The notes beneath the pieces are model-generated. The model did no database searches. It had not been told where the DNA came from and was given only the letters and a program-made list of their open reading frames with translations. DNA of 64,000 nucleotides from Clostridia bacterium (GTDB taxonomy: Bacteria; Bacillota; Clostridia; Lachnospirales; Lachnospiraceae): the NCBI GenBank assembly GCA_910574835.1, contig CAJTDE010000006.1, positions 1 to 64,000 of the forward strand. The letters are read 5' to 3'. Below, one piece after another: positions 10,369-21,269 of the stretch. Made by a program: the position numbers and the translations under genes. Numbering within the stretch: position 1 is the first letter of the stretch; each line of letters begins with the position of its first letter.

Positions 10369-10464
10369 GAAATTAATTTCAATACTGAAATATTGACACG
10401 CAATTACAAAACTACTACAATTGTCTTATCAGCTGAACAAAGTTTTATATCTGAAATTAATTTC
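10369..10464 (+). promoter_or_regulatory. SorC-operon promoter with two identical palindromic operators
   Basis: The promoter is TTGACA (10393-10398), 17 nt, TACAAT (10416-10421), an almost ideal sigma-A site. The 12-bp palindrome GAAATTAATTTC occurs twice, at 10369-10380 just upstream of the -35 and at 10453-10464 inside the leader. The centre-to-centre distance is 84 bp, which is eight helical turns. This looks like a pair of operators for the SorC-family regulator encoded immediately downstream, possibly with looping. Confidence 0.75.
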
Positions 10465-10480: not shown

Positions 10481-11425
10481 ATGAGTATTGTTGAAAATTT
10501 AAAATTTACGATGCGTGTTTGTGAAATGTTTTACAACGAAAATTTAACGCAAAAGGAGATAGCAGCATCTCTGAATATTTCACGTCCCCAGGTATGCCGT
10601 ATTCTTGCTCATGCCAGAGAGAGCGGCCTTGTATCAGTACATCTTAATTATCCGGATACGGAAGAAAGCTTTTTTGAACATAAGATCCGAGAGCTTTATG
10701 GCCTGACCGAGGTATATGTGTACGATATAGGAAGTGACGGGCTGCCAAATAGCCTGGAGCTGCTGGCGCAAAAATCGGTAGGACTATTTGATGCATGTAT
10801 CCGTGATAATAGCCGGGTAGGAGTGATGGCTGGCCGGAGTATTTTGGAATTTGCAAAGGCGTTGCCTCGTTGTAAGAACCGGGGATTGGAATTCGTTCCA
10901 CTATCAGGAGGAAATGCAGCAAGCGGATGTGAATGGTTTGCTAATTCCAATGCACAATTGTTTGCCAGTAAAACAGGTGGAAAACATTATGTATTAAATG
11001 CACCTGCATATTTAAGCTCTGTGGAAGTAAAGAATATCCTTGAGAACGAAGAAAGCATACGAGAGGTTACGGAGAAATGGGGAACATGTCAAACAGCTAT
11101 TATTGGAATTGGTACGGTGAATGTCAGCTCTTCTGCCGGCAGAGCAGGCGATTTAAGTGAGAAAGATATAGATTTATTGATATCTGACGGAGCGTCTGTG
11201 TCTATCTGCTGCTCATATCTGAATAAATCAGGTAAAGAAATTCATAATGCAGTAACGGAAAAATTTATAGGAGCTTCTATTTCTCAGCTTAAAAATACAT
11301 CTTCGATTGCCATTGCAATAGGAGCAGAGAAAGTACCAGCGATCTGTTCGGCCCTTATGGGAGATTGCATAGATGTATTGATTACTTCATTAGAAACAGC
11401 GCGTCTGATTGTTAATGAAAATTGA
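10481..11425 (+). CDS. SorC/DeoR-type sugar-responsive regulator
   Basis: A 314-aa transcriptional regulator. The N-terminal helix-turn-helix (about residues 7-50, YNENLTQKEIAASLNISRPQVCRILAHARESGLV) is followed by the SorC sugar-phosphate-binding domain (residues 55-314) with the SKTGGKHYVLNAPAYL-type motif. Regulators of this family bind a phosphorylated sugar intermediate and control the adjacent catabolic operon. The frame is open further upstream, but AGGTG before the ATG at 10481 marks the start. It is the first gene of a six-gene unit with an ABC importer, a TrpA-like protein and a kinase. Two identical palindromes at its promoter suggest autoregulation. Confidence 0.88.
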   Translation: MSIVENLKFTMRVCEMFYNENLTQKEIAASLNISRPQVCRILAHARESGLVSVHLNYPDTEESFFEHKIRELYGLTEVYVYDIGSDGLPNSLELLAQKSVGLFDACIRDNSRVGVMAGRSILEFAKALPRCKNRGLEFVPLSGGNAASGCEWFANSNAQLFASKTGGKHYVLNAPAYLSSVEVKNILENEESIREVTEKWGTCQTAIIGIGTVNVSSSAGRAGDLSEKDIDLLISDGASVSICCSYLNKSGKEIHNAVTEKFIGASISQLKNTSSIAIAIGAEKVPAICSALMGDCIDVLITSLETARLIVNEN

Positions 11426-11451
11426 TGGAAAAAGACGAAGGAGAAGAAGAA

Positions 11452-12429
11452 ATGAAAAAATTAATTACATGGGTGTTAACTTTAACTCTGTTTGTATCGT
11501 GTCTTATGGTACTTTCCGGATGTTCTGCAAAAGAAAATTCGAAGCAGGATCAGGAACCACAGAATACCGAAGGGGAGGCGCAGGCAGAAACTACGGACAA
11601 GAAAAATGTCTATATTATTACACCATATCTTTCTTCTGTGACAACAAAAGAAATGGTGAATTACATGCAGTCTAGCATTGAAGAGATTGATGGCAAGGTA
11701 ACAGTCATTGATACAGAGGGTGAGACAGCAACTTTGGCAAGCCGTGTTGAGGATGCGGTAACGGCAAAGGCAGATGCTATTGTGATTGTCAGTGTAGATC
11801 CCAGCTATTGTGAAGAACAGATTAAGGAAGCAAGTGATGCAGGTATTCCGGTCTTTGGCTGTGATGCGGGCTATTTGGATACCATGCAGATGAATGCAAC
11901 AAGTGATAATTATGAAATTGGAAAATTAATTACGGAATATCTTTTTGAGAAGATCAATCATACAGGTAATATTATTGTCTTGACAGATCGTACACATCCG
12001 GGAGTTGGAAAGCGTACGGCAGCGCTGGATGATGTATTGAAAGAAAATCCGGATATTAAGGTGATTGCAGAGGAGCATGTAGTTGTACCCGGTCCAATCG
12101 AAAGTGGGAAGAGTTCTATGGAAAGCTTGATTTTGGCAAATCCGGACCCGGATTCTATTACGGCGGTATGGTGCGGGTGGGATGAGCCGGGAATTGGCGC
12201 GGCACAAGCGCTTTCTGAGGCTGAGCGTGAAGGAATCGTTATTACCGGTGTGGATGCAAATGAGCAAGCAGTTGCTATGATTGAAGCAGGCGCTCCTAGC
12301 TTTATTGCAACGGTAAAGCAAGATTTCCCGGCAATGGCTAAAATGGTAGTAGATGAAATGACAAAGGTGTTCAATGGAGAAGCAGCTGACAAAGGTGAAT
12401 ATTATGCTGAAGCAACCATTATTGATTGA
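11452..12429 (+). CDS. Sugar ABC transporter substrate-binding lipoprotein
   Basis: A 325-aa lipoprotein with signal peptide and lipobox LSGC at about residues 20-23. The mature part is a periplasmic-binding-protein type I fold (Peripla_BP_4 group, as in ribose, rhamnose or autoinducer-2 binding proteins), starting with NVYIITPYLSSVTTKEMVNYMQ. AAGGAG at 11438-11443 supports the ATG at 11452 rather than 11422. It sits upstream of one ATPase with two domains and one permease, matching the RbsA/RbsC layout. The ligand is unknown. A 14-bp hairpin follows the gene and may allow more of this protein than of the other subunits. Confidence 0.88.
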   Translation: MKKLITWVLTLTLFVSCLMVLSGCSAKENSKQDQEPQNTEGEAQAETTDKKNVYIITPYLSSVTTKEMVNYMQSSIEEIDGKVTVIDTEGETATLASRVEDAVTAKADAIVIVSVDPSYCEEQIKEASDAGIPVFGCDAGYLDTMQMNATSDNYEIGKLITEYLFEKINHTGNIIVLTDRTHPGVGKRTAALDDVLKENPDIKVIAEEHVVVPGPIESGKSSMESLILANPDPDSITAVWCGWDEPGIGAAQALSEAEREGIVITGVDANEQAVAMIEAGAPSFIATVKQDFPAMAKMVVDEMTKVFNGEAADKGEYYAEATIID

Positions 12430-12473
12430 TGTAAAATTTAAGGAAAAAGGTTGTTTTTGAATATGTGGAACCT

Positions 12474-12505
12474 GAAATAATCGCATAGTTTTATGCGGTT
12501 ATTTC
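12474..12505 (+). terminator. Intercistronic hairpin after the binding-protein gene
   Basis: GAAATAATCGCATA and TATGCGGTTATTTC form a 14-bp stem (one G-T pair) with a four-nt loop. No T run follows, so it is more likely to protect the 3' end of the binding-protein mRNA than to stop transcription. Confidence 0.55.
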
Positions 12506-12519
12506 ATTAAGGAGAACAA

Positions 12520-14004
12520 ATGCTTGAAGTAAAAAATATATGTAAAAGGTTTGGCGACATGTATGCTTTGAATCACTTTAATTTGTCCATGGAAAAAGGA
12601 ACGGTACATGGACTGGTGGGAGAAAATGGTGCCGGAAAGTCTACCCTGATTAAAATTTTAACAGGTGTGTATCATTTGGATTCTGGGGAAATATTTATAG
12701 ACGGAAAAAAGGTGGAGATTCATGCACCTACACAAAGCCAGGCGCTTGGAATAAGTGTGATTCATCAAGACAGAAACCTGGTGCCGGCTTTTAATGGAGT
12801 AGAAAATGTATATCTTGGCAGGCGTGGATTGCATAGACTTGGTGTGGCAGTAGATTTTGCAGGCATGAAAAAGAAAATTCTTTCAAAAATGCAGGAGTAT
12901 GAGATTGAGGTACCTTTGGATAAGCTGGCACGGGAGTTGACACCGCCTCAAAAAACGCTTCTGGAGATTGTCAGAGCTATTATGATGGATTGTAAACTGT
13001 TGATTTTAGACGAGCCTACGGTTGCATTGACAGATAAAGAGACAGAAGTGCTTTTTCGCCTAATTGAAAAATTGCGGACAAAGGGCACTGCAATTCTTTA
13101 TGTATCACATAGGATGGATGAGATTTTTCAGTTGACTGATAAGATAACAGTCATGAAAAATGGAGAACTGGTAGGAACCGTTGAGACTGCATTAACAGAC
13201 AGAGATTCCATTATTGCAATGATGACAGATAATTGGAAAAGTATGGAAAGCGTTCGGAGAAAAAAAGAATTTGGAGATGCAGTGTTAGAGGTACAGCATA
13301 TAGCTACGAATGATGGAAGAGTAAAGAATGCAAGCTTTTGTGCACATAGAGGAGAAATTCTGGGTATTTTTGGATTAGGCGGAAGTGGGAGAACGGAATT
13401 ACTGGAAAGTATTTACGGACTACGGGGGATTAAACAGGGGACTATTCTCAGAGATGGAAAACCTTGTGAGAAATTTTCGCCGGAAATATCATTGAAAAAC
13501 GGAATGGTGATCATTAATGAGGATCGCCGAGGGATGGCGCTGGTTCCATCATTGAGCATACGGGAGAATATTGTGCTTTCCACTTTGCAAAATTACAAAG
13601 GAAAATTCTTGTATAATACAAAGCGTGAAATGGAAGATGTAGTTCAAAAGATAGAAGAACTTGGAATTAAAACTACAGGACCATCTCAAACAGTCAGTGA
13701 GCTGTCGGGAGGGAATCAGCAGAAGGTCGTGTTTGCAAAGGCGCTTATGTCAAATCCGCAAGTATTTTTATGTGATGAGCCGACTCAGGCGGTCGATGTG
13801 AAAACTCGTGCTGAAATACATGAAATGCTTAGAAAATATGCGGACGAGGGCAGCGCGGTAGTATTTGTGACTTCGGATCTGAAGGAAATGCTGGAAGTGG
13901 CGGATAATATTCTGATTATCTCAAATGGTTACACAAAAGAAATGCTTAAAAACAAAAATCTGAGTGCAGAGCAAGTATTAAAACATTGTTATGCAGAGAA
14001 TTGA
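12520..14004 (+). CDS. Sugar ABC transporter ATPase with two nucleotide-binding domains
   Basis: RbsA/MglA-type ATPase of 494 aa that energises the importer. Domain 1 has Walker A GENGAGKST at residues 34-42 and Walker B LLILDEPTVALT. Its signature reads LTPPQK instead of the usual LSxxQ, so it is degenerate. Domain 2 has a degenerate Walker A (GLGGSGRTE), as is normal for RbsA proteins, the signature LSGGNQQK and Walker B VFLCDEPTQAVD. The ribosome binding site AAGGAG is well placed. It is the third gene of the SorC-controlled unit and overlaps the open frame of the next gene. Confidence 0.9.
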   Translation: MLEVKNICKRFGDMYALNHFNLSMEKGTVHGLVGENGAGKSTLIKILTGVYHLDSGEIFIDGKKVEIHAPTQSQALGISVIHQDRNLVPAFNGVENVYLGRRGLHRLGVAVDFAGMKKKILSKMQEYEIEVPLDKLARELTPPQKTLLEIVRAIMMDCKLLILDEPTVALTDKETEVLFRLIEKLRTKGTAILYVSHRMDEIFQLTDKITVMKNGELVGTVETALTDRDSIIAMMTDNWKSMESVRRKKEFGDAVLEVQHIATNDGRVKNASFCAHRGEILGIFGLGGSGRTELLESIYGLRGIKQGTILRDGKPCEKFSPEISLKNGMVIINEDRRGMALVPSLSIRENIVLSTLQNYKGKFLYNTKREMEDVVQKIEELGIKTTGPSQTVSELSGGNQQKVVFAKALMSNPQVFLCDEPTQAVDVKTRAEIHEMLRKYADEGSAVVFVTSDLKEMLEVADNILIISNGYTKEMLKNKNLSAEQVLKHCYAEN

Positions 14005-14014
14005 GGAAAAATCT

Positions 14015-14977
14015 ATGAAGAAAGAATTTAATCAACACAAGATAAAAGAGTTTTTACGTTCATATGGAACATTTTTTGCACTGCTTGCAATTATCCTTGT
14101 TTTTTCAGCATTGCGGCCAAGTACGTTTGCCACACTTGGAAATTTTGTAAATATTACAAAGCAGATGTCTATTCTTGCTGTCTGTGCCCTTGGAGCAACA
14201 TTAATTATGTGTGTGGAAGAATTTGATTTGTCAATTGGAACAATTGCAAGCTTTGGAGGGATTCTGGCAGCAAAACTCGCCGTAGCCGGCTGTTCATTCA
14301 TTGTTTGTCTGTTAGCTGCGACTGCTGCATGTGCACTGCTTGGTTATATGAATGGATTTATTGTAACAAAATTTGGAGTGATGTCATTTATTATTACTCT
14401 GGCTTCCAGTACGATGATTTATGGGTTTTCTTACTGGCTCTCGGATGGAGCAACTATATTTAGCGGAATACCAAAGTCTTTTTCCGCGCTTGGTACAGGA
14501 AAAGCATTGGGAATACCATATTTGACAATGGTTATGGTTTTACTTGCGGTTGTTTTCTATTTTATGCTAAAGCGAACGGTTTTCGGACGCAGCCTCTACG
14601 CGATTGGCGGCAACACATCAGCTTCTGCGGTTTCAGGAATCAATGTAAAAAGGTGCAAGGCAATGGCCTTTATGCTGGGCGGGGCAATGGCTGGCGTGGC
14701 AGGAGTTTTGATGGCATCCAGGTTGGGGTCCGCTCATCCAACAGGTGCAGATAGCCTTTGTTTAAATGCATTTGCAGCAATTTTTATAGGAAAAACATTA
14801 TTTAAAGAAGGAGTGCCAAATGTTATTGGTACAATTGTAGGTGTGGCAGTATTTAGCGTATTGTCCAATGGTTTGACAATTTTGACAGTTCCTTCCTATA
14901 TTCAGAATATTATTACGGGACTTGTGATTATGTTAGCAGTTGTAGTTCAAAAAGTTACCAGTACACAGAGGATATGA
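14015..14977 (+). CDS. Sugar ABC transporter permease
   Basis: RbsC-type permease of the BPD_transp_2 family, 320 aa with eight to ten hydrophobic segments. The EFDLSIGTIASFGGILAA and GRSLYAIGGNTSASAVSGINVKR motifs, the latter being the cytoplasmic loop that contacts the ATPase, are typical of ribose-type permeases. The ribosome binding site GAGGA overlaps the stop codon of the ATPase gene and supports the ATG at 14015 over 13991. Only one permease gene is present, so the channel is probably a homodimer, as in RbsABC. Confidence 0.9.
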   Translation: MKKEFNQHKIKEFLRSYGTFFALLAIILVFSALRPSTFATLGNFVNITKQMSILAVCALGATLIMCVEEFDLSIGTIASFGGILAAKLAVAGCSFIVCLLAATAACALLGYMNGFIVTKFGVMSFIITLASSTMIYGFSYWLSDGATIFSGIPKSFSALGTGKALGIPYLTMVMVLLAVVFYFMLKRTVFGRSLYAIGGNTSASAVSGINVKRCKAMAFMLGGAMAGVAGVLMASRLGSAHPTGADSLCLNAFAAIFIGKTLFKEGVPNVIGTIVGVAVFSVLSNGLTILTVPSYIQNIITGLVIMLAVVVQKVTSTQRI

Positions 14978-14979
14978 TT

Positions 14980-15723
14980 ATGTATTCAGAACGAATGAAA
15001 AATCTTGTTAGAAAGGGACAGAAGATGTTTGTAGGTTATTTGTTGGCAGGTTATCCTACAAACGAAGAATTTTTAGAAGTACTGTCATTTTGTGATGAAA
15101 TTGATATTGTAGAGATTGGTTTTCCTTCCGCAAATCCTTATGCAGATGGGGAAGCGATACAAAATGCACACCGAAGTGTGCATAGGGAGTCTGTGTGTAA
15201 TTTAAACTATTGGAGGGAAATCAGAAACCGGATTTGTCAGCCAATTTGGATTATGGCTTACCAGGAGGATTTTATTACATCAGGCACCTGTTTGGAATTT
15301 GCCCGTAATCGTTTGATGGATGGAGTTGTAATTCCGGATGCAGACAATCAGGATGAGCTTTCAGAGATACTGCGGCCTTACGGTGTGGATGTAATTCCTA
15401 CGGTGAATCCAGGAATGTCCAAAGAAGAATTGGAAAAGACATTAAAGAAAACCTCGTTATTATATGAACAACTGTATGTGGGAAAAACTGGGGAAGTGAA
15501 TCCTCATGAAAGTTATATGGAAATGCTAAAATATACGATGCAATATCCGGATGTAATCAAGTTTGGAGGATTTGGAATTAACAGTCCAAAGAAGGTAGAT
15601 GAGGTTTTGAAGAATGGATTTGAGGGTGTTATTATAGGCTCTGAGTTAATTCGGAGGCTTTCGATTTCTAAAAAGGAATTAAAACAGTTTTTGAGAGATA
15701 TAGGTAAGGTTGTGAGACAATGA
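14980..15723 (+). CDS. TrpA-like TIM-barrel protein, putative sugar-phosphate lyase
   Basis: A 247-aa homologue of the tryptophan synthase alpha subunit. In TrpA the catalytic residues are Glu49 and Asp60; here both are kept in VEIGFPSANPYADG (about E45 and D56). The flexible-loop threonine is kept in VGKTGE (about T170). The phosphate-binding loops are kept as GGFGIN (about 196-201) and IIGSE (about 219-222). The fold and chemistry of a retro-aldol lyase releasing a triose phosphate therefore look intact. No trpB or other trp gene is nearby; the gene lies between a sugar importer and an FGGY kinase. I infer that it cleaves a phosphorylated substrate made by that kinase. The ATG at 14980 has better ribosome-binding-site spacing than 14974. 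Confidence 0.8.
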   Translation: MYSERMKNLVRKGQKMFVGYLLAGYPTNEEFLEVLSFCDEIDIVEIGFPSANPYADGEAIQNAHRSVHRESVCNLNYWREIRNRICQPIWIMAYQEDFITSGTCLEFARNRLMDGVVIPDADNQDELSEILRPYGVDVIPTVNPGMSKEELEKTLKKTSLLYEQLYVGKTGEVNPHESYMEMLKYTMQYPDVIKFGGFGINSPKKVDEVLKNGFEGVIIGSELIRRLSISKKELKQFLRDIGKVVRQ

Positions 15724-17192
15724 AATATACGGTGGTTTTTGATTTTGGGACGACGGCAGTAAAAGGAGCGTTAATTGCGGAAGATGGACAAATGTTCACA
15801 GAACAATCAGTGAATCTGAAACTTCTATTAAAGGATGGGTATATTGAGCAGGATCCCCAGAGTTGGGTAGAGGCATTCAAGAGTATATCAAATACATTCT
15901 TTAAACAAGTACCAAAGGAAATGGTTGCTAATATTATTATGAGTGGCCAGATGCAAGATGTGATTTTAGTTGATAAAGAGGTTCGGCCTTTGGGAAATGC
16001 AATTCTCTATTCAGATGGCCGTGCTGTGGAAGAATGTAAGAGATTACGAAAAGTGTTAGGAGAAAAATATCTAAATGAAACTTTAGGCAATGTATTGAAC
16101 GAAACCTTTGCAATTCCTAAAATCGCCTGGATAAAAGAACATGAGCAGGAGCGGTTTGAGAATACTTTTAAAGTTCTTTTTAGCCCAAAGGATCTGATTG
16201 TAGCCAGAATGACAGGAGCTTTTTACTGTGATACCACGACCAGTGCGACAACCGGTGGAATGAATTTGCAAAAACAGGCATGGGATGAAGAAATATTAGA
16301 TGTGCTTTCAATCCCTGGAGATAAATTGCCAAAGATTTACAGGCCGGATGAAGTGGCGGGCATGGTAACTGCTGAAGCAGAGGAGATTTTTGGGTATAAC
16401 AGAGGGACAAAGGTATATGTAGGAATTGGTGATGCGGGAGCTTCTTTTTTTGCTAGTGGCTTGATTAGTGAGGGACAATTTAATGTGACCTGGGGAACCA
16501 CAGGACAGATAGGCTTGATTTCTTCAAAAATTCTTCCGCCAACCGAGGGGTTATGGAATCTGCCTGCAATGACAGAAAAGAAATATATAAATGTAGTACC
16601 TATATTAAATGCAGGAAATGTGCACAAATGGATTGCCTCCTTTTTAGGCGCAGGAAAAACTGATTATGCTGTCGTATCAAAACTGCTGCAGGAGAATCAT
16701 AAGAAAAGTGGTTTATTGTGTTTACCTTATTTAACGGGAGAGAGATTTCCAATAGTGGATCCCTATGCATCCGGAAGCTTTGTGGGAGTTACGCCAAATA
16801 CAACACAGGCCGATTTTGTACGGGCATCTCTGGAAGGAATCTGCTTTTCTGTGCGGCAGGCAATAGAAGCTCTGGGTGTCAGCCCTGTTACAATTACTTT
16901 GATTGGAGGGGGAGCAAAAGAGAAAGCGTGGTGCCAGATGCTTGCGGATATCCTGGATTCTGAAATTACGGTGCTGGAACATGCGGAGCTTTTGCCGGCT
17001 GTAGCACTTGCAGGAGTAACTGAACGGGAACCAGAGGAGTATGATGCTTATATTATGGAAATTCAAGAGCATTATGGGAAACAGAAATTTTATCCTAAAA
17101 AGGAATTGCAGGATTACTATAACAGTTGTTATAAAAAGTATTTGAAGCTGTATCCGGCACTCCGAAATGTTTTTGAGACATTTCATGAATAA
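15720..17192 (+). CDS. FGGY-family carbohydrate kinase
   Basis: Kinase of 490 aa with the two-domain actin-like fold of xylulokinase-type enzymes. Seen are the phosphate-1 loop FDFGTTAVKG (residues 6-15), the catalytic-region SGQMQDV, the phosphate-2 loop WGTTGQIG, and the adenosine-site GGGAKEKAWCQMLAD. The ATG overlaps the stop codon of the TrpA-like gene by 4 nt (ATGA), so the two proteins are translationally coupled. The likely role is phosphorylation of the imported carbohydrate before cleavage by the TrpA-like protein. The substrate cannot be read from the sequence. Confidence 0.88.
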   Translation: MKYTVVFDFGTTAVKGALIAEDGQMFTEQSVNLKLLLKDGYIEQDPQSWVEAFKSISNTFFKQVPKEMVANIIMSGQMQDVILVDKEVRPLGNAILYSDGRAVEECKRLRKVLGEKYLNETLGNVLNETFAIPKIAWIKEHEQERFENTFKVLFSPKDLIVARMTGAFYCDTTTSATTGGMNLQKQAWDEEILDVLSIPGDKLPKIYRPDEVAGMVTAEAEEIFGYNRGTKVYVGIGDAGASFFASGLISEGQFNVTWGTTGQIGLISSKILPPTEGLWNLPAMTEKKYINVVPILNAGNVHKWIASFLGAGKTDYAVVSKLLQENHKKSGLLCLPYLTGERFPIVDPYASGSFVGVTPNTTQADFVRASLEGICFSVRQAIEALGVSPVTITLIGGGAKEKAWCQMLADILDSEITVLEHAELLPAVALAGVTEREPEEYDAYIMEIQEHYGKQKFYPKKELQDYYNSCYKKYLKLYPALRNVFETFHE

Positions 17193-17222
17193 AAAGAGTT
17201 GGGAGAAAAGGCAAATAAACGG

Positions 17223-17259
17223 CATCCATGTCTAAGGAGATTATCTTTAGACATGGATG
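17223..17259. terminator. Strong hairpin after the kinase gene
   Basis: CATCCATGTCTAA (17223-17235) pairs with TTAGACATGGATG (17247-17259). It ends the SorC operon and also lies at the end of the minus-strand PRD remnant. There is no clear T run. Confidence 0.6.
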
Positions 17260-17457
17260 TCATTCCGTGTGAAGAAATATTTCTGCCAAATATGCAATTT
17301 CGTCAGAAGGGATAGAAATAGCAAAAGTATCGGATACAATTGCCTGAGTGTACTCTCGCTGGAGATTGTCCAAAATGATGTTGAGAGAGTACATTAGAGT
17401 GTCAGTAGCTTTTTTAGGGTTTACATATAAAAGAATCAGGGAAAGGATATCATTCAC
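17260..17457 (-). pseudogene. Remnant of a PRD-type regulator
   Basis: A 65-codon minus-strand frame preceded directly by a stop codon. Its end reads AISIPSDEIAYLAEIFLHTE, which matches the conserved end of a PTS regulation domain (DExxYLxxH-like), as in BglG antiterminators or LevR regulators. RNA-binding and other domains are absent, so this is probably the C-terminal scrap of a lost regulator. Confidence 0.4.
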
Positions 17458-18127: not shown

Positions 18128-18324
18128 CACTAAGGTGGGTTAATACTTTAATGCGTCACAGCGTTGTGGCGAAAAAGTGAAACCTGCGGAAATCATAATA
18201 GGTAACAGCAATATCCTTACCATGTACAAATGAATTTACGGACACATGCTCCTGCAGCGGAAGTCTGTTTGGATTGAGGTATATGGAGAGCGGTATGGCT
18301 GAACTTAAATCAGGAGGAATAAGT

Positions 18325-19371
18325 ATGAAAAAGTTATTGGCAATGCTGCTTGTGCTGACGATGGCAGTATCTGTGACAGCATGCGGCGGTAAGGGTGATG
18401 AGAAGGCGGATGCTCCTTCCGAGACCCAGGAGGGCGCTTCCCAAGAAGAGGCAGGAGCAGAGGACGCAGCAGGGACAGAGGCTTCGGCTGACGGCGCGGA
18501 GTATGTGGTAGGCATCTGCCAGCTTGTACAGCACGACGCGCTGGATGCGGCAACTCAGGGCTTTAAGGATGCGCTGACGGAAGAACTTGGCGATAAGGTA
18601 ACCTTTAACGAGCAGAATGCTTCCGGCGATGTGCCGACCTGCTCTACCATTGTAAATCAGTTTGTATCGGATGAAGTAGATCTGATCCTGGCAAATGCAA
18701 CCCCGGCGCTTCAGGCAGCGCAGGCAGGAACCGGAACCATTCCGATTCTCGGAACATCCGTAACCGAGTACGGCGTAGCTTTGAATATCAGTGATTTTGA
18801 CGGAACCGTAGGAACCAATATCTCCGGAACTTCCGACCTGGCTCCTCTGGATCAGCAGGCACAGATTGTAAAAGAGCTGTTCCCTGATGCAAAGAACGTA
18901 GGATTGTTATACTGTTCCGCAGAGGCCAACTCCCAGTACCAGGTAGATACGGTTCAGGGATTCTTAGAAGACCTTGGATACACCTGCAAGCAGTACTCCT
19001 TCGCAGACTCCAATGACCTGTCGTCCGTAACCCAGACAGCCGTGGATGAAAATGACGTACTCTACATTCCGACGGACAATACGGCCGCAAACAACACAGA
19101 GGTTATCCGCAATATCTGCGAGCCGGCTAAAATGCCTGTAGTAGTAGGAGAGGAAGGCATCTGTGCAGGCTGCGGCGTGGCAACCTTGTCTATCAGCTAC
19201 TACGATCTGGGCGTTGCTACCGGCAAGATGGCGGCAAAGATCCTGAAAGGCGAAGCTGATATCTCTGCCATGCCCATTGAGTATGCGCCTCAGTTTACCA
19301 AGAAGTATAATGCGGAATTGTGCGACTCTCTTGGCATTACCATTCCGGAGGGCTACGAAGCGATTCAGTAA
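18325..19371 (+). CDS. ABC transporter substrate-binding lipoprotein, TrpX-like
   Basis: A 348-aa lipoprotein with signal peptide and lipobox VTAC (Cys about residue 20), then an Ala/Glu-rich linker of about 45 residues. The mature domain belongs to the ABC_sub_bind family (VGICQLVQHDALDAATQGFKDAL, then NVGLLYCSAEANSQYQVD), which includes the tryptophan/tyrosine-linked TrpX proteins. GGAGG precedes the ATG at 18325; the longer frame from 18274 lacks a ribosome binding site. The permease and ATPase follow after a strong terminator-like hairpin. Ligands of the family include aromatic amino acids, but this one is not proven. Confidence 0.85.
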   Translation: MKKLLAMLLVLTMAVSVTACGGKGDEKADAPSETQEGASQEEAGAEDAAGTEASADGAEYVVGICQLVQHDALDAATQGFKDALTEELGDKVTFNEQNASGDVPTCSTIVNQFVSDEVDLILANATPALQAAQAGTGTIPILGTSVTEYGVALNISDFDGTVGTNISGTSDLAPLDQQAQIVKELFPDAKNVGLLYCSAEANSQYQVDTVQGFLEDLGYTCKQYSFADSNDLSSVTQTAVDENDVLYIPTDNTAANNTEVIRNICEPAKMPVVVGEEGICAGCGVATLSISYYDLGVATGKMAAKILKGEADISAMPIEYAPQFTKKYNAELCDSLGITIPEGYEAIQ

Positions 19372-19433
19372 GCAGGGCGGCAGTGTCTGAGAAAGGCACT
19401 TAGAAATTTGGTTCTCCTTGAAAAAATTCATAG

Positions 19434-19472
19434 AAAGCGGCAAAAAAGTACTTTCCTTTTTTGCCGCTTTTT
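19434..19472 (+). terminator. Internal terminator between binding protein and permease
   Basis: AAAGCGGCAAAAAAG (19434-19448) and CTTTTTTGCCGCTTT (19456-19470) form a perfect 15-bp stem with a T-rich 3' arm. It would let most transcripts end after the lipoprotein gene, with partial read-through to the permease and ATPase. Confidence 0.8.
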
Positions 19473-19552
19473 GTTATACTTATGAAAGCTGTGTGCCTTT
19501 TGGGGATACACAGAACCGGGAATATTACGAACTGGAATAGAGGAGGTTTGTT

Positions 19553-20482
19553 ATGGAAATTGTGAAGCTTTTAAACGCGCTGCCGGGAGCCTGCGCCCAG
19601 GGCCTTATCTGGGGCATTATGGCGATTGGCGTCTATATTACCTATAAGGTTTTGGATCTGGCGGACCTGACGGTAGACGGAACGATGGCTACCGGAGGAG
19701 CGGTTTGTGTTATGCTGATGCTTAATGGGCACTCCGCAGGCTTTTCCCTGCTTGTGGCGGTAGGCGCCGGCATGCTTGCAGGTCTGGTAACGGGAATTTT
19801 ACATACGGTTATGGGAATCCCTGCGATTTTGGCGGGGATTCTGACACAGCTTGGCCTTTACTCCATTAATCTGCGGATTATGGGAGGAAGAGCGAACCAG
19901 TCAATCGGAGTGGATCAGTATGACCTGTGGGTTTCCCTGCGCTGGGTGAAGGATGTGCCGTTTTATAAAAATCCGATTTTCGTCGTAGGACTTTTCGTGA
20001 TTCTTTTGATTGCCGTTCTTTACTGGTTCTTCGGCACGGAGCTTGGCTGCTCCATCCGCGCCACCGGGTGCAATGCAAATATGTCCCGGGCGCAGGGAAT
20101 CAACACGGATATCAGCAAGATTCTGGGTCTGGTGATCTCCAACGGCATTGTAGCCTTTTCCAGCGGCCTGTATGCCCAGTACCAGGGCTTTGCGGACGTC
20201 AACGCAGGCCGGGGCGCTATTGTAATCGGGCTGGCGGCCGTGATCATCGGCCAGGTGGTATTTGGAAAGATACGCGGAAACTTTGCTTTTAAGCTTTTGT
20301 CCGTGGCCTTTGGAGCGATTATTTACTATCTGGTGCTTCAAATTGTGCTGAAGCTGGGACTGGAGCCGAATGATTTGAAGCTTTTGTCTGCGTTTGTGGT
20401 TGCCGTTTTTCTTTCAATTCCCTATTTGAAGGGCAAATATTTTGCAAAACCGGTGAAAAGGGGAGGTGCGTCCAATGCTTAG
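19553..20482 (+). CDS. ABC transporter permease, TrpY-like
   Basis: A 309-aa permease of the BPD_transp_2 family. It has about eight to ten membrane segments and the conserved DLADLTVDGTMATGGAVCVML near the start, as in the permeases that partner ABC_sub_bind lipoproteins. The loop LGCSIRATGCNANMSRAQGIN is the predicted ATPase contact. GAGGAGG is well placed before the ATG. The last codons overlap the start of the ATPase gene by 8 nt, so the two are translationally coupled. Confidence 0.88.
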   Translation: MEIVKLLNALPGACAQGLIWGIMAIGVYITYKVLDLADLTVDGTMATGGAVCVMLMLNGHSAGFSLLVAVGAGMLAGLVTGILHTVMGIPAILAGILTQLGLYSINLRIMGGRANQSIGVDQYDLWVSLRWVKDVPFYKNPIFVVGLFVILLIAVLYWFFGTELGCSIRATGCNANMSRAQGINTDISKILGLVISNGIVAFSSGLYAQYQGFADVNAGRGAIVIGLAAVIIGQVVFGKIRGNFAFKLLSVAFGAIIYYLVLQIVLKLGLEPNDLKLLSAFVVAVFLSIPYLKGKYFAKPVKRGGASNA

Positions 20483-21269
20483 GATTGAACATATCTGGAA
20501 GACCTTTAATGTGGGTACGGTAAATGAGAAGACGGCCCTTAAGGATCTGTCTCTGGAATTGAAGGAGGGAGATTTCGTAACGGTTATCGGCGGAAACGGA
20601 GCCGGAAAGTCTACCATGCTCAATGCGGTTGCCGGGGTGTGGCCGGTGGACGAAGGAAAGATTTTTATTGATGATATTGATGTAACGAGACTTCCGGAGC
20701 ATAAGCGGGCGGCTTATCTGGGACGGGTGTTCCAGGACCCTATGACGGGAACGGCGGCTAATATGCAGATTCAGGAGAATTTGGCTCTGGCTCTCCGAAG
20801 AGGGAATTTCCGGTTTTTAAAGTCCGGAATTACCAAGGCGGAGCGGGAGGATTATCAGGAGAAGCTTAAGGTTCTGGATCTGGGACTTGAGGAGCGGATG
20901 ACAAGTAAGGTGGGACTGCTCTCCGGCGGTCAGAGGCAGGCTTTGACGCTGTTGATGGCGACGCTTAAGAAGCCGAAGCTTTTGCTCCTTGATGAGCATA
21001 CGGCGGCGCTTGATCCGAAGACAGCGGCGAAGGTGCTGGATGCTACGGAGCGGATTGTGGGGCGGGATCATCTTACGACCCTGATGATTACCCACAATAT
21101 GAAGGATGCCATTGCACATGGGAACCGGCTTATAATGATGTATGAGGGGAATGTGATTTATGATGTTTCCGGGGAGGAGAAGAAGAGGCTGAAGGTTGCG
21201 GATCTGCTGGCGAAGTTTGAGCAGGCCAGCGGAGGGGAATTTGCGAATGATCGGATGATTTTGACTTAA
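20475..21269 (+). CDS. ABC transporter ATPase, TrpZ-like
   Basis: A 264-aa ATPase. Walker A is GGNGAGKST (about residues 40-48), the signature LLSGGQRQALTLLMA, and Walker B reads LLLLDEHTAALDP, with His in place of the usual Pro after the catalytic Glu. That variant is common in ATPases of this transporter type. The ATG at 20475 lies inside the end of the permease gene, with GGGAGG upstream. Together with the lipoprotein and permease it makes a complete importer, probably for an aromatic amino acid or similar small molecule. Confidence 0.88.
   Translation: MLRIEHIWKTFNVGTVNEKTALKDLSLELKEGDFVTVIGGNGAGKSTMLNAVAGVWPVDEGKIFIDDIDVTRLPEHKRAAYLGRVFQDPMTGTAANMQIQENLALALRRGNFRFLKSGITKAEREDYQEKLKVLDLGLEERMTSKVGLLSGGQRQALTLLMATLKKPKLLLLDEHTAALDPKTAAKVLDATERIVGRDHLTTLMITHNMKDAIAHGNRLIMMYEGNVIYDVSGEEKKRLKVADLLAKFEQASGGEFANDRMILT

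Follow-up and report, generated by a model that had tools for sequence, protein, structure and literature searches.

A TrpA-like protein encoded between a CUT2-type importer and an FGGY-family kinase: a proposed stand-alone lyase in a predicted SorC-controlled operon

What does a relative of the alpha subunit of tryptophan synthase (TrpA), a textbook anabolic enzyme, do in an operon whose other genes encode a regulator, a sugar-type importer, and a sugar-type kinase? The question is raised by a locus in a 64,000-nucleotide stretch of a Clostridia bacterium genome of the family Lachnospiraceae (contig CAJTDE010000006.1, positions 1 to 64,000; the whole stretch is referred to here as the window). 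An original prediction, made from the letters of the window, proposed that the kinase phosphorylates an imported compound, which the TrpA-like protein (TrpA') then splits. Our analysis makes such a scheme of import, phosphorylation, and cleavage with release of glyceraldehyde-3-phosphate (G3P) probable, whatever the aglycone, and indole is the leading, though tentative, candidate for that aglycone.

All six open reading frames (ORFs) predicted between 10481 and 17192 were found in their place and order, with Pfam families that agree:

10481..11425, plus strand: SorC-family regulator (PF04198 Sugar-bind, 3.8e-48)
11452..12429, plus strand: CUT2-type substrate-binding lipoprotein, SBP (PF13407 Peripla_BP_4, 6e-42)
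12520..14004, plus strand: ATP-binding cassette (ABC) ATPase with two ATP-binding domains, RbsA/XylG type (PF00005 ABC_tran, two stretches)
13991..14977, plus strand: CUT2-type permease (PF02653 BPD_transp_2, 2e-36)
14974..15723, plus strand: TrpA-like protein (TrpA'), proposed stand-alone lyase (PF00290 Trp_syntA)
15720..17192, plus strand: FGGY-family kinase, xylulokinase-like (FGGY_N and FGGY_C)

The stop of TrpA' and the start of the kinase share four nucleotides (15720-15723), as had been described, and the Peripla_BP_4 protein, the double-domain ATPase, and the BPD_transp_2 permease together make up a CUT2 importer. The ATG at 10481, which sits within an ORF opening at TTG 10421, is likely the true SorC start, while the SBP start at 11452 was picked by eye in an ORF opening at 11422. 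The regulator best matched DeoR and LsrR, both far under cut-off, the kinase scored 331.8 bits against the xylulokinase model TIGR01312 (cut-off 380.25), and the ATPase passed no cut-off among the 25 of 190 NCBIfam families listed. As none of the six proteins reached a curated cut-off among the NCBIfam families listed, the annotation does not give the substrate.

TrpA' is a member of the TrpA family by PF00290 (1.9e-29, 102.9 bits; cut-off 27), and its score of 92.7 bits against TIGR00262, the equivalog of tryptophan synthase alpha, is under the cut-off of 102.35. In the TrpA tree that the original prediction had suggested building, the relatives of TrpA' form a single clade separate from genuine TrpA. 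The motifs VGKTGE, GGFGIN, and IIGSE are all present, and E47 and D58 align with E49 and D60 of Escherichia coli TrpA, so that this reading of the protein proved accurate. Across the alignment of 23 TrpA' members, E49, D60, Y102, Y175, G184, F212, G213, and G234 are kept without exception, and position 235 is S or T; the residues of a stand-alone lyase of indole-3-glycerol phosphate (IGP), namely the catalytic Glu and Asp and the phosphate-site glycines, occur in 23/23, which leaves the catalytic residues of the predicted G3P-releasing lyase intact in every member. S55, D56, and N104, which we take to be TrpB contacts, are each invariant in 53/53 genuine TrpA rows, whereas the window protein has A, N, and E there, and only 2, 10, and 0 of the 23 members, respectively, retain them. 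The top-ranked fold match of TrpA' is the stand-alone IGP lyase BX1, level with TrpA.

Relatives of TrpA' are rare. Counting matches with E of 1e-49 or better, which is clearly over the level of genuine TrpA, and including the window's own genome, they were found in 1/299 genomes of the family (the own genome), 2/16 of the genus, 2/398 of the phylum, and 3/392 of the order. Scanning genome contigs yielded 30 loci, of which 22 (L139-L160; 126-212 bits when scored with the window protein) carry TrpA' relatives, including three contigs (L139, L144, and L147) already met in the taxon-wise searches; the other eight (L161-L168; 30-72 bits) all have a TrpB. The hosts of the cassette include members of Lachnospiraceae, Anaerovoracaceae, Oscillospiraceae, Peptococcaceae, Bacillaceae, and Anaerolineaceae (Chloroflexota).

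Conservation of the neighbours, on which the original prediction depended, was borne out: kinase, permease, and ATPase genes adjoin TrpA' in 21 of the 22 related loci, an arrangement that exceeds chance, and the SBP and SorC genes do so in 20 and 19, respectively. Gaps occur where L154 and L157 meet contig ends and in L146, which keeps only a SorC remnant. In a variant locus (L156), TrpA' and SorC adjoin a permease and a partial ATPase, and no FGGY or CUT2 gene is present in its 10.4 kb; its importer best matches models of 2-aminoethylphosphonate importers, under their cut-offs, which weakly supports the idea that the kinase of the other loci serves to make the phosphate. Pairwise distances of TrpA' track the distances within each of the remaining five proteins (r 0.73-0.91; permutation p 0.001 in every case), a correlation that host kinship alone could yield. 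The SBP is 44-55% identical to 20 cassette homologues, and its profile matched at E<=1e-55 in 2 of 226 genomes (nine candidates scored per genome), both with TrpA' cassettes; the kinase keeps an Asp at the position of XylB 233, presumably catalytic, in 20/20. Clustering revealed no unrelated flanking family common to at least three loci, immediate same-strand neighbours being listed only, without a Pfam search. Among viral contigs, 34 stretches fitted a pattern and none was confirmed, and the 14 plasmid records reached at most 32.4% identity, eight of them carrying a trpA or tryptophan synthase alpha annotation.

The window genome itself argues against a role in tryptophan synthesis, as the original prediction had held. 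In its assembly (5.0 Mb, 133 contigs, 95.99% complete, 4.63% contaminated), TrpA' is the sole PF00290 match, IGP synthase (IGPS, PF00218) was not found, and neither was TrpB (TIGR00263; best 27.7 bits vs cut-off 392.45), though a trpB could lie in the missing part; tryptophan synthesis is thus absent as far as the assembly reaches. A companion claim, that no trp gene is near, stood for the window, where tblastn found no trpB, but not for the family, in which a genuine trpB, with or without trpA, adjoins the cassette in 4 of the 22 related loci (L146, L153, L154, and L148/L179), one of them across a contig break.

In L153 and L146, genuine trpB-trpA lie immediately upstream of the SBP gene on the same strand. 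In L154, the start of trpB follows the kinase at the contig end, and the remainder of trpB and then trpA stand on another contig of the same genome; in L148, the kinase leaves the contig, and a second contig begins with the missing kinase part followed by trpB-trpA, a continuity inferred from matching ends. L148 and L154 are closely related, and L146 and L153 stand separately in both the TrpA' and the TrpA part of the tree, so the linkage occurs in at least three lineages. The chance of three linked loci among 22 is about 8e-7 by a rough binomial estimate, which assumes a random order of about 2500 genes and would be weakened by horizontal-transfer hot spots. Rfam detected a T-box ahead of trpB in L146 and ahead of the unlinked pair in L172 (2/10 sources), and the trpBA leaders of L153 and L154 look T-box-like by eye, under the Rfam threshold. 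We regard the linked trpBA as neighbours of the SorC unit rather than as established members; for the family, their presence makes tryptophan or indole metabolism again a possible downstream step. A glycine riboswitch aptamer (Rfam) was also seen downstream of trpBA at L179:469-568. We dropped the idea that genuine TrpA of trpBA-linked hosts is lyase-dead through Glu at position 60, because this Glu also occurs in IGPS-bearing hosts (L169 and L170) and in 31/53 genuine TrpA rows.

The gene content of the cassette genomes (n=23, the window genome and 22 others) gives a second link to TrpB. TrpB is over cut-off in 13/23, a further 5/23 have only a TrpB2-like match near 150 bits, and IGPS is over cut-off in 4/23, all within the 13 TrpB-positive genomes. 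TrpB without IGPS therefore occurs in 9/13 TrpB-positive cassette genomes vs 20/202 controls (Fisher p 2e-6; 6e-5 after dropping two related genomes), the controls being the genomes with TrpB over cut-off among 299 phylum genomes that are >=90% complete, and the comparison is to be read with the facts that completeness is not given for the 22 genomes, that many are metagenome-assembled, that two loci are from Chloroflexota, and that lifestyle is a possible confounder. Any TrpB, in contrast, is not enriched (18/23 cassette genomes vs 229/299 in the sample). The nine trpB without a genomic IGPS stand alone or with trpA in the examined flanks, which were not searched for trpD, trpE, and trpF, and contig ends lie close upstream of trpB in L178 and L181.

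Upstream of the SorC gene, the window holds three regulatory features:

10369..10380, no strand assigned: operator-like palindrome copy 1, GAAATTAATTTC (exact site)
10393..10421, plus strand: sigma-70-like promoter TTGACA-17-TACAAT, between both palindromes (consensus scan, 11/12 matches)
10453..10464, no strand assigned: operator-like palindrome copy 2, GAAATTAATTTC (exact site)

The promoter is called by consensus only, in a scan of 8.2 kb that gave 35 promoter-like sites vs 22.3 expected. The exact palindrome precedes the cassette in 15/22 related loci, with a one-mismatch copy in L145, and two copies are present in L147 (80 bp apart) and L153 (78 bp apart) as well. Other short loci (L001-L067 and L076-L133), 447,537 bases in all, contain no copy, and the single exact copy outside a cassette is in L176, on the 3' side of the trp operon. 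Such a distribution fits a SorC repressor that would bind ahead of its own operon, possibly repressing it through looping between the palindromes. Control of trpBA by the same palindrome was considered and is unsupported, the trpBA leaders resembling separate promoters or T-boxes. Directly 3' of the kinase stop, a strong hairpin seen by eye at 17193-17300, which the terminator scan did not call, may mark where the transcription unit ends. No Rfam element reached the gathering threshold within the window.

From the gene set, its conservation, the clade and residues of TrpA', the common palindrome, and the trpB(A) linkage, we infer the reaction steps, their order, and the substrate as follows. 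The six genes would form one SorC-controlled unit that takes in and degrades, or salvages, one compound. The CUT2 importer would bring it into the cell, the FGGY kinase would phosphorylate its terminal hydroxyl, and TrpA', working without TrpB and using Glu47 and Asp58 for acid/base chemistry in the manner of TrpA, would cut the bond that joins the aglycone to the first carbon of the glycerol-phosphate side chain, giving G3P and the aglycone; the phosphorylated compound would probably induce the operon via SorC. TrpA cleaves X-CHOH-CHOH-CH2-OP to X-H and G3P. Provided that X-H is excreted or consumed by other pathways, phosphorylation of an imported alcohol and such cleavage would suffice without an additional enzyme, in keeping with a unit of six genes that has no other partner.

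As to the aglycone, the trpB(A) data and the retained aromatic residues fit indole. The imported compound might then be indole-3-glycerol or a close, C-linked indole relative, phosphorylated to IGP or its counterpart and split by TrpA', with G3P used for energy and indole passed to TrpB in hosts having one; this salvage, which we put forward as a possibility and little firmer than that, could let bacteria that lack the early tryptophan pathway form the amino acid from a secreted intermediate, and in hosts without TrpB the compound would serve as a carbon source only. If true, a conserved, regulated operon in which a TrpA relative acts independently of TrpB and follows a sugar-type kinase would represent a metabolic use of the fold that is new in bacteria, and release of indole would imply cross-feeding on a tryptophan intermediate and an indole source other than tryptophanase.

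A number of observations count against indole. The equivalents of RbsB D89, R141, D215, and Q235, presumably its ribose-binding residues, are each kept in 21/21 SBPs and point to a polyol or sugar. Near-invariant in TrpA' and absent or rare in genuine TrpA are W98 and Y179 (23/23 each), E62 and Q177 (22/23 each), and H68 (21/23), while BX1 keeps TrpA-like letters (Pro, Val, Val, and Val) at positions 62, 98, 177, and 179. Bulky W98 together with F153 (20/23 members) could leave a smaller indole pocket, and the importer type, the RbsB-like residues, and W98 fit a small polar X. Five of the 23 cassette genomes, the window genome included, have no TrpB-family match above 100 bits, so indole cannot become tryptophan there; such hosts and the new invariant residues argue against plain IGP, and in the four genomes with IGPS salvage would be unneeded. 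Separate promoters or T-boxes seem to serve the linked trpBA, the exact palindrome is found among the trpB loci (L169-L197, taken with 1.5-kb flanks) only in L175, identical with cassette locus L153, and in L176, and no established natural supply of indole-3-glycerol was found in the literature searched. A non-aromatic, ketose-like sugar or polyol would run through the same scheme, TrpA' acting as a metal-independent aldolase that forms no Schiff base and yields G3P and a small carbonyl compound, with the trpB(A) linkage incidental. The CUT2 importer with its xylulokinase-like kinase, the polar SBP residues, the smaller and more polar pocket suggested by W98, F153, and Q177, and the five genomes without TrpB all speak for it. 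We nevertheless hold this sugar or polyol version of the scheme to be doubtful, as it accounts neither for trpB(A) being linked in three or more lineages nor for the excess of genomes that have TrpB but no IGPS, and Y102, Y175, and F212 remain aromatic throughout TrpA'.

Other explanations depart further from a kinase followed by a G3P-releasing lyase. TIM barrels switch reaction easily, and the five new near-invariant residues could mean that TrpA' converts the kinase product in another way, as an isomerase, an epimerase, or a different TIM-barrel enzyme; because 23/23 members keep E49, D60, and the phosphate site of TrpA, we hold this to be improbable. Similar kinds of regulator, importer, and kinase also stand together in the Lsr system, which takes up and processes autoinducer-2 and of which the cassette might be a variant with TrpA' in place of LsrF. 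However, the kinase reaches 100.3 bits vs a cut-off of 528 for the autoinducer-2 kinase and the regulator 99.4 vs 486 for LsrR, one permease stands here vs two (lsrC and lsrD) in E. coli, and LsrF works by thiolase chemistry, unlike TrpA, so we rate such a variant as very improbable. An ordinary TrpA for tryptophan synthesis, despite the Trp_syntA family and the TrpA fold, is hardly credible and was rejected as contradicted by the content of the window genome: TrpB and IGPS were not found there, the clade is separate, positions 55, 56, and 104 are not conserved, and genuine TrpA co-occurs with TrpA' in L146 and L153.

Beyond the cassette, the window carries another ABC importer (18274-21269), which lies 1.1 kb downstream from the kinase gene and could supply tryptophan. 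The best match of its binding protein is the tryptophan-binding TrpX, at 229.9 bits and thus under the cut-off of 390. A second TrpA-like clade was seen in genomes of the same family (L069-L073; e.g., L069:8799-9512 and L072:8114-8833). In 5/5 of these loci the gene lies beside an ABC importer, a PfkB-type kinase, a BtpA-type TIM barrel, and an Fe-alcohol-dehydrogenase-type gene, with a phosphorylase-superfamily gene and a glyoxalase-type gene in 3/5 each, neighbours that were assigned by Pfam on single examples; this clade is a candidate for another catabolic use of TrpA. In a genome of the same genus (L074:6864-8437), a TrpA-like gene adjoins a BtpA-like gene and a mannose-type phosphotransferase system (PTS), and a divergent TrpA-like protein (L137:7454-8179; 80.8 bits) is encoded next to an acetamidase/formamidase-family gene and PTS genes, the PTS being recognized by sequence appearance in both.

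Among known systems, tryptophan synthase alpha shares with TrpA' the PF00290 family, the catalytic Glu/Asp, and the phosphate-site glycines, but TrpA' differs in its separate clade, its window genome without a detected TrpB, its lost or variable residues at presumed TrpB contacts, and its score under TIGR00262. The plant BX1/IGL enzymes are stand-alone IGP lyases that act without TrpB, according to portions of a published account (PMC12727527). They resemble TrpA' in TrpA fold and catalytic residues, TrpB independence being presumed for TrpA', and BX1 has Lys at the TrpA Asn104 position in our alignment; TrpA' is set apart by being bacterial and encoded beside an importer and a kinase. No description of a TrpA-FGGY operon or of an indole-glycerol kinase was found among the open-licence PubMed Central papers listed, judged by titles and abstract openings, where some queries were too broad to inform.

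The E. coli Lsr system, which includes a TIM-barrel carbon-carbon cleaving enzyme, as is proposed for the cassette, has a SorC-type regulator, a CUT2 importer, and an FGGY kinase in common with the cassette, which differs in its single permease, in having no LsrF- or LsrG-type domain in its six proteins, and in a kinase and regulator far under the Lsr cut-offs. In a survey of the FGGY family, the word "tryptophan" is absent from the main text (PMC3245297), the portion to which this statement applies. The linked trpB genes bring the proposal closest to indole salvage by TrpB. The trpBA of Chlamydia are a case of such salvage. TrpB-based salvage in Bifidobacterium and by TrpB1/TrpB2 in Thermococcus is treated in sections of another report (PMC11085991). 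In these systems, as in our proposal, TrpB takes indole that was not made by the cell's own early pathway; in the operon described here, however, the indole would come from an imported, phosphorylated conjugate and not from free indole.

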